This document shows positions 48,873-49,959 of a DNA stretch of 49,959 bases, in pieces; position 1 is the stretch's first letter, and each line of letters begins with the position of its first letter. The notes below the pieces were generated by a model that ran no database searches, had not been told where the DNA came from, and was given only the letters and a program-made list of their open reading frames with translations. The stretch is from Clostridiales bacterium DTU070 (GTDB taxonomy: Bacteria > Bacillota > Clostridia > DSM-8532). A program made the translations under genes and the position numbers. Location of the stretch: the NCBI GenBank assembly GCA_001513105.1, contig LFSH01000076.1:8381-58339 (forward strand). Reading direction: 5' to 3'.

Positions 48873-48902
48873 TTGACATTGTGAACAGTACGGAAATATA
48901 CT
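48873..48902 (+). promoter_or_regulatory. Promoter of the ridA-family gene
   Basis: TTGACA (48873-48878, perfect) and TATACT (48897-48902), 18-base spacer. It would give a leader of about 140 bases before the gene. Confidence 0.75.
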
Positions 48903-48908
48903 GTATTT

Positions 48909-49049
48909 AGATTGCTTAATAAAAATATTGATTGCCGGCTCTACTGTGGCAGCACCCGGTGATACCGGAAAAACCTATGGGATACCGACCCAGCGGGAAT
49001 GACTTGGCCTGGCAGTTCTTTTATCGTTTTTGGCACAGGAGGAAAGGGT
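48909..49049 (+). other. Long structured leader of the ridA-family gene
   Basis: The transcript leader contains the hairpin CCGG-TGATA-CCGG, a GGG-ATACCGA-CCC stem and CTGTG/CACAG complementarity that reaches to the ribosome site. It matches no riboswitch I know. It may be an unknown cis-regulatory RNA or simply a GC-rich leader. Confidence 0.35.
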
Positions 49050-49508
49050 ATGAAAACAGAGAGCAGGATACAGGAACTTGGCCTTTCGCTGCCGAAGCCA
49101 TCTTCAGCAGGTCTGTATACACCCGTGAGAAAGGCTGGAAACATGCTTTATATCTCGGGGCAGATACCCTGGCTGGACGGGGAGGTAAAATACTCCGGCA
49201 AGGTGGGCGGTGAACGCGATATTGAATACGGCCAGGAGGCAGCAAGGCTGTGTATATTGAATATGCTTGCTGCGGTTAAAAGCGTAATCGGTGACCTGGA
49301 TAAAATTAGGCAGATAGTGAAGATTACCGTTATGGTCAGCAGTGAAAACGGTTTTGATAAACAGCACATTGTTGCAAACGGCGCATCGCAGCTGCTGATT
49401 GACATCTTCGGCGAGAACGGGCGTGCCGCACGGTCAGCGGTTGGCGTGAACCAGCTTCCCATGAATGTTACCGTTGAAATAGAAGGCATTATCGAAGTGG
49501 AAGAGTAA
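49050..49508 (+). CDS. RidA/YjgF family protein
   Basis: A 152-residue protein of the YjgF/YER057c/UK114 family. The pattern KAGNMLYISGQIPWLDGEV near the N-terminus and the C-terminal NGRAARSAVGVNQLPMNVTV, with the conserved Arg of the active-site cleft and the closing VEIEGIIEV strand, are clear. RidA hydrolyses reactive enamine/imine intermediates of PLP enzymes; this longer form resembles the YjgH/YabJ-like subgroup often of unknown role. AGGAGG precedes ATG 49050; the frame from 48999 is not supported. It stands alone behind its own promoter. Confidence 0.88.
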   Translation: MKTESRIQELGLSLPKPSSAGLYTPVRKAGNMLYISGQIPWLDGEVKYSGKVGGERDIEYGQEAARLCILNMLAAVKSVIGDLDKIRQIVKITVMVSSENGFDKQHIVANGASQLLIDIFGENGRAARSAVGVNQLPMNVTVEIEGIIEVEE

Positions 49509-49612
49509 TGAGCGGATTGCTGCAAGGCGGTGTAAAATAATTCCTGGATTGCCGTATACCTAAAGCGGAATGGAACCTGGTATGTGACAGAAAGACGTCA
49601 GGACCCGGAGAG

Positions 49613-49679
49613 CAAAAGGGCGTCCTGTGCATGCGCTCCCGCCGGGGGGGAGGGATGTGTTCTGCAAAACGCCCTTTTG
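49613..49679 (+). terminator. Large inverted repeat after the ridA-family gene, possible terminator
   Basis: Eleven-base arms CAAAAGGGCGT (49613-49623) and ACGCCCTTTTG (49669-49679) pair perfectly around a 45-base interior that can form its own GC-rich hairpin. The TTTT lies inside the 3' arm, so termination is possible in both directions. Confidence 0.5.
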
Positions 49680-49705
49680 TAACATAAAAATACATTAACA
49701 GGCTA

Positions 49706-49734
49706 TTGACAGATGAGTAAAACTGTTATATTAT
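49706..49734 (+). promoter_or_regulatory. Promoter of the Cys/Met leader peptide
   Basis: TTGACA (49706-49711, perfect) and TATTAT (49729-49734), 17-base spacer. Transcription would begin near 49741, about 28 bases before the leader ATG. Confidence 0.85.
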
Positions 49735-49768
49735 CTCACTAACCAGTTTATAAAGAAGGAGCCGCACT

Positions 49769-49888
49769 ATGAGAACCAGGATTTCGGCACACCTGAATAC
49801 CGGCGCTTTTGGTATGTGCAGCATGTACATGTGTATGTGCATGCCCGGTTCGTGCTGTTCTCATAATGCTTTCTGCTCCTGTCTGTAA
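49769..49888 (+). CDS. Cys/Met-rich leader peptide, 39 residues (probable attenuator peptide)
   Basis: A 39-codon frame starting with ATG, eight bases after AGAAGG (49754-49759). It begins MRTRISAHLNTGAFGMC and then alternates sulfur residues (CSMYMCMCMPGSCC), ending FCSCL. Seven of 39 codons are Cys (residues 17, 22, 24, 29, 30, 36, 38) and six are Met. The codon bias towards one amino-acid class, a consensus promoter just before it and a terminator 40 bases after it are the signs of a translated attenuator leader. Alternatives are a Cys-rich RiPP precursor or metal-binding peptide, but promoter-ORF-terminator order and the antiterminator pairing favour a leader. Downstream genes are outside the window. 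Confidence 0.78.
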   Translation: MRTRISAHLNTGAFGMCSMYMCMCMPGSCCSHNAFCSCL

Positions 49889-49958
49889 TATTATGGTGTT
49901 TACAGGTTTATTATAAAAGATTGCAAAAGTAGGAAGCAGAAAGTTTCCTACTTTTTTT
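49869..49958 (+). promoter_or_regulatory. Attenuator: antiterminator and intrinsic terminator downstream of the leader peptide
   Basis: The terminator stem AGTAGGAA (49928-49935) / TTCCTACT (49945-49952) has a nine-base loop and is followed by a T-run to 49958. The segment CTTTCTGCT (49869-49877), inside the last codons of the leader ORF, is a perfect complement of AGCAGAAAG (49935-49943), the terminator's inner 5' arm and loop. With a one-base bulge it extends to CCT/AGG. The two pairings exclude each other. A ribosome finishing the peptide would cover 49869-49880 and let the terminator form; a ribosome stalled at an earlier Cys codon would leave it free to form the antiterminator. Confidence 0.75.
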
Positions 49959-49959
49959 G

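Follow-up and report, generated by a model that had tools for sequence, protein, structure and literature searches.

A Met/Cys-rich leader ORF and a probable ribosome-mediated attenuator before the methionine importer operon of a clostridial genus

The stretch of DNA analysed here (the window; 49,959 nucleotides of contig LFSH01000076.1 from Clostridiales bacterium DTU070) closes with a compact leader region, the parts of which are collected in Table 1. A first-pass annotation had described a promoter, a ribosome site, a 39-codon open reading frame (ORF) and an intrinsic terminator, and all four are present where it placed them. Its count of seven Cys codons also stands, but the six Met codons that it reported included the start codon, leaving five internal ones. 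The predicted peptide reads MRTRISAHLNTGAFGMCSMYMCMCMPGSCCSHNAFCSCL, with the Met/Cys run spanning codons 16-30 (49814-49858). Among 236 Shine-Dalgarno (SD)-led ORFs of 12-65 codons in the window, this ORF alone passed a cut of at least five Met plus Cys making up at least 20% of residues, and no SD-led short ORF in 154 kb of other loci passed the same cut. The Met/Cys content has a binomial P of ~2e-8 (assumed background 4%), and the leader RNA has a folding z of -4.6.

Table 1. Parts of the leader region at the end of the window (49706-49959).
Feature	Coordinates	Strand	Basis and remarks
Promoter	49706..49734	+	-35 TTGACA 49706-49711, 17-nt spacer, -10 TATTAT 49729-49734; consensus scan 11/12
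Shine-Dalgarno AAGGAG of leader ORF	49756..49761	+	Sequence; seven bases ahead of ATG 49769
Leader peptide ORF, 39 codons	49769..49888	+	5 internal Met and 7 Cys codons; orthologues aligned
Strand 1: SD, start codon and first codons	49758..49776	+	Pairs with strand 2; minimum free energy (MFE) fold
Strand 2: last codons of leader ORF	49857..49880	+	Part 49867-49877 is the predicted antiterminator 5' half; duplex test p = 0.003
Strand 3: predicted antiterminator 3' half and terminator 5' arm	49928..49938	+	11/11 pairs in four species
Intrinsic terminator (3:4)	49925..49958	+	13-bp stem and U tract; fold; also delimited as 49925-49955 with the U tract
62-base overlap with end of contig C38	49898..49959	+	C38 runs on into metN-metI-metQ

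The end of the window coincides with the end of its contig (C3), and contig C38 has an end that repeats, inverted and exactly, the last 62 bases of the window, the pattern expected of two joining contigs. Past the join, metN, metI and metQ follow in that order (L003 4883 to 2386, minus strand, outside the window), with the metN start ~40 nt beyond the window. MetI and the MetQ/NlpA family lipoprotein score above their NCBIfam cut-offs (217.6 versus 212 and 245.2 versus 228.85, respectively); the best NCBIfam family for MetN is MetN, yet its score of 353 falls below the strict cut-off of 500. In support of the join, three genomes of the same genus, G001 (on one contig), G002 and G003, carry the leader, the terminator and metN without a break. 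Genes for Cys/Met uptake had been predicted just past the window edge, a prediction that holds given metNIQ on the adjoining contig and the unbroken order in G001. The gene 5' of the leader varies among genus members (a RidA-like gene, an FAD enzyme, an amidohydrolase and Crp/Fnr). Upstream neighbours thus change while metN stays, which argues that the leader belongs with metN.

Sequences around the leader promoter have features of their own. A strong inverted repeat at 49606-49682 (AAAGGGCG ... CGCCCUUUUG) lies between the RidA-like gene and the promoter and has a 74%-identical copy at the same place in G002, despite the different upstream gene there; it is perhaps a terminator or a small RNA. 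Directly after the -10 box, three genus members show strong conservation of 49735-49750 (CTCACTAA.CAGT), above the level of the remaining 5' untranslated region; the stretch may serve as an operator or as an initially transcribed signal. The RidA-like gene is preceded, at 48873-49050, by a good sigma-70-type promoter and a G+C-rich untranslated leader of ~140 nt, for which Rfam gave no match, no counterpart turned up at the DNA level within the genus, and the folding energy was unremarkable.

To assess conservation, we aligned the leader region across the four genus members, in all of which the ORF and the terminator are conserved together. The alignment shows a conserved -35 box and a largely conserved -10 box, and each member carries a short ORF upstream of the operon that is led by an SD sequence and predicted to be translated. 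Met 16, 19, 21, 23 and 25 and Cys 17, 22 and 30 are invariant, the ORF has indels of 6 and 12 nt, which keep the frame, and the N-terminal codons change largely non-synonymously. Each genome has one site for the peptide, always before metN, and a profile search for homologues outside the genus, covering 391 genomes of the class, returned chance matches only.

Met/Cys-rich peptides can bind copper, and an ORF conserved in the genus could encode a functional small protein (for example, one that binds metal), with the terminator merely ending its gene. We consider such a protein very unlikely: sequence conservation is confined to the genus, the N-terminal changes are of the kind just described, nucleotides at the end of the ORF pair with both the ribosome-binding site (RBS) and the terminator, and non-homologous peptides of like composition recur before metNIQ elsewhere, as set out below.

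The predicted layout of the leader is trp-like (1:2 / 2:3 / 3:4). In the MFE fold, strands 1 and 2 form a helix, with its core at 49764-49775 and 49858-49869, that hides the RBS and start codon of the leader; the core is paired in all four species, with one G-U substitution. Strand 2 is also complementary to the 5' arm of the terminator (49867-49877 with 49928-49938; 11 pairs, p = 0.003 versus shuffles in the window). All 11 pairs are kept in 4/4 species through three one-sided changes, each of which preserves pairing, and slid controls gave 44-68%. No two-sided change occurs in these pairs among the four species, a set of related sequences too small for strong covariation. The first-pass annotation had instead paired 49869-49877 with 49935-49943. 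That nine-base complementarity exists, but it is not the stronger, conserved one: its register fails in G003, where the loop has changed, and the 5'-arm register survives there. The terminator stem is present in the four species, and the alignment of relatives that had been proposed as a check yielded one compensatory change in it (A-U to G-C), along with the three conserved Cys codons. The terminator lies between the leader ORF and metN, as the attenuator class requires, and antiterminator and terminator share 49928-49938 and are predicted to be mutually exclusive, another feature of that class. Counted back from the last base of the stop codon, strand 2 falls at 10-23 nt in 4/4 genus members, and a ribosome at that codon would cover it.

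Taken together, the leader of the metNIQ (methionine ABC importer) operon is probably a ribosome-mediated transcription attenuator, a switch that very probably turns metNIQ on when methionine, perhaps also cysteine, is short. The trp/his-type reading offered at first pass gains support from the metNIQ genes that follow and from the joint conservation of ORF and terminator in 4/4 genus members. From the sequence we infer ribosome stalling, the direction of regulation and methionine as the main signal, with cysteine a possible co-signal. With ample Met-tRNA (and Cys-tRNA), ribosomes would complete the 39-codon ORF, and the 3:4 terminator would form because a ribosome at the stop codon would cover strand 2 (49867-49880), stopping transcription before metN. 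Under Met-tRNA shortage, a ribosome would stall in the Met/Cys run, strand 1 would be occupied by the stalled or a trailing ribosome, strand 2 would pair with the 5' arm of the terminator and, with 2:3 formed, RNA polymerase would continue into metNIQ. In an untranslated leader, strand 1 (the RBS) would trap strand 2, giving the terminator by default. Methionine shortage would also lower initiation with fMet, so this off-by-default untranslated state may matter.

In thermodynamic folds of the full leader the terminator always wins, and energy therefore predicts no state without kinetics. When the fold was masked by a single ribosome at codons 19-25, the 1:2 helix formed around the ribosome; for the antiterminator to win, the model needed either a ribosome stalled at codon 16 or a second one on the RBS, and even then it won only before the 3' arm was made. 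A ribosome stalled between strands 1 and 2 may block the 1:2 helix sterically, which is beyond the judgement of a fold program. The fold also places a 10-bp hairpin within the Met/Cys run (49821-49844), and the Met and Cys codons could be a by-product of this self-complementary stretch in an RNA element that binds a protein or ligand. This is highly improbable, as the element has no Rfam match, indels in the ORF preserve the frame, and leaders of other lineages differ in spacing and include non-palindromic runs such as MNMMMCG.

Neither a T-box (RF00230) nor a SAM (S-box) riboswitch (RF00162) was matched by Rfam in the window or the leader; searches at the gathering threshold and at an E-value of 1 returned rli42 alone, a chance match (15.8 bits versus a cut-off of 80). 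A SAM riboswitch occurs elsewhere in the window's genome, with one copy upstream of a metK-like ORF, which we take to be metK. The sister genus (g2) has a T-box before its metNIQ operon, with Rfam matches above cut-off in seven genomes and more T-box-like sequences at metN recognised by eye. The apparent specifier, placed by eye, reads ATG in each of the 12 T-boxes inspected, ten of them from the sister genus and two from another family, and the base ahead of the ATG varies. Thus, with a SAM riboswitch, a T-box and a leader at different operons or in different relatives, different RNA devices appear to read methionine supply.

The upstream regions of metN in 53 clostridial genomes or loci were surveyed against shuffled sequences. 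A Met/Cys-rich, SD-led ORF precedes metN in 13/53 regions (0.23 in shuffles), and, of the top-ranked residue pairs, Cys+Met exceeded its shuffled value by the largest factor. Met alone was enriched (10/65 versus 0.18 in shuffles) and Cys alone weakly so (2/65 versus 0.43). The control codons, enriched over shuffles, fit the pathway of the metNIQ genes downstream. A leader was recorded in the window genus, L016 (with L015), L018, L024, G072, G100, G202, G265, G300/G383 and G374; at least nine clostridial lineages besides the window genus thus have Met-rich leaders before metN that are not homologous to that of the window. An intrinsic-terminator-like hairpin lies 3' of every surveyed leader, with the weakest U tract in L024. 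Single-helix antiterminators in the other lineages did not reach significance (p 0.12-0.72).

Individual leaders in this survey stand out. L015 (12-74) and L016 (2200-2283), from a Herbinix metagenome-assembled genome (MAG) and a soil Bacillota MAG, carry homologous leaders before metN (MC[FY]NMCGMCSMP), a second conserved family unrelated in sequence to that of the window. The most Met-rich leader, that before metN in G100 (L139), has 49 codons, 13 of which encode internal Met (MRVTMRMSVYMLMMSMMMSMLMCMYMCF...).

In leaders of the ten lineages, which were chosen partly by Met+Cys content, Met makes up 20% and Cys ~10% of residues; a Cys excess persists in leaders picked by Met alone (21/250, P = 3e-10, background assumed 1.5%). 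This share of Cys, the seven Cys codons of the window leader, three of them invariant in the genus, and the Cys leaders known in Actinobacteria (PMC1262725; Canestrari 2020, through its citation in PMC13236596) could indicate an attenuator that responds to cysteine, with stalling at Cys codons as the signal and an importer that serves cystine or overall sulfur supply. We find this unlikely. Met outnumbers Cys in several leaders (4-13 versus one or two), and MetI and MetQ score above the cut-offs of methionine-transporter models. Because Met is also more conserved and more recurrent than Cys, and because the sister-genus T-box at the same operon has ATG, that is, Met, as its apparent specifier, methionine appears to be the better-supported signal, with Cys also enriched; on the same grounds, the label 'cysteine-responsive' given at first pass is not the best reading. 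A shortage of either amino acid might stall the ribosome, a refinement of the methionine-responsive attenuator rather than an exclusive alternative to it. Each leader of the ten lineages carries both residues, with 25 MC/CM adjacencies, and the excess of Cys among leaders selected by Met alone points the same way, but Cys drops to one or two in some lineages and might be a side effect of ATG-TGY codon runs or of RNA structure. We put such a joint sensor forward tentatively, as a reasonable prospect somewhat short of probable.

The nearest precedent is the metL leader before metNIQ of Streptomyces lividans TK24, called a methionine-dependent attenuator (PMC8079986); Actinobacterial Cys leaders come next. 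Like the window leader, metL encodes a short Met/Cys-bearing peptide (...CMCRRMCAF) upstream of the same operon, but it has a leaderless start, no clear terminator as reported and a home in another phylum, whereas the window leader has an SD start, an intrinsic terminator and a mapped antiterminator, with no sequence similarity to metL by eye. Polycysteine leaders of mycobacteria and related Actinobacteria likewise carry Cys codons in an ORF upstream of sulfur genes, but their Cys runs lie near the stop codon, before cys operons and without a conserved terminator (PMC1262725); the window leader is mixed Met/Cys, with Met leading, and has intrinsic termination. With trp/his-type attenuators it shares a promoter, a leader ORF with control codons and mutually exclusive 2:3 and 3:4 hairpins, and it differs in that its strand 1 consists of the leader's RBS and start codon, its strand 2 falls within the final codons of the ORF and Met appears to be the main control residue. 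Met T-boxes (in the Lactococcus lactis met operon, PMC7058034, and in the sister genus) have in common with it the type of operon, a presumed signal of tRNA-Met charging and control by termination, but there uncharged tRNA binds the RNA directly, without a peptide.

We rate the metNIQ leader as a probable new variant form of ribosome-mediated attenuation. A bacillar His leader was, to its authors' knowledge, the first such case, with none shown before outside Proteobacteria and Actinobacteria (PMC2965389), and a search confined to open papers turned up no account of clostridial Met leaders upstream of metNIQ. It is possible, although doubtful enough that we offer it as conjecture, that Clostridia repeatedly evolved, from unrelated sequences, attenuators for methionine import that read Met and Cys in one peptide and replace the T-box and in which, with initiation also starved, a start-site helix sets the no-translation state to 'off'. 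In Firmicutes such work is done by T-boxes and S-boxes, and leader-peptide attenuators were believed to be almost missing there. About ten clostridial lineages have unrelated leaders before the methionine importer operon, beside relatives that use a T-box, and thus offer a natural case for sensor replacement at one operon. They also raise the question of how methionine, needed at every start codon, can be the residue at which the ribosome stalls.
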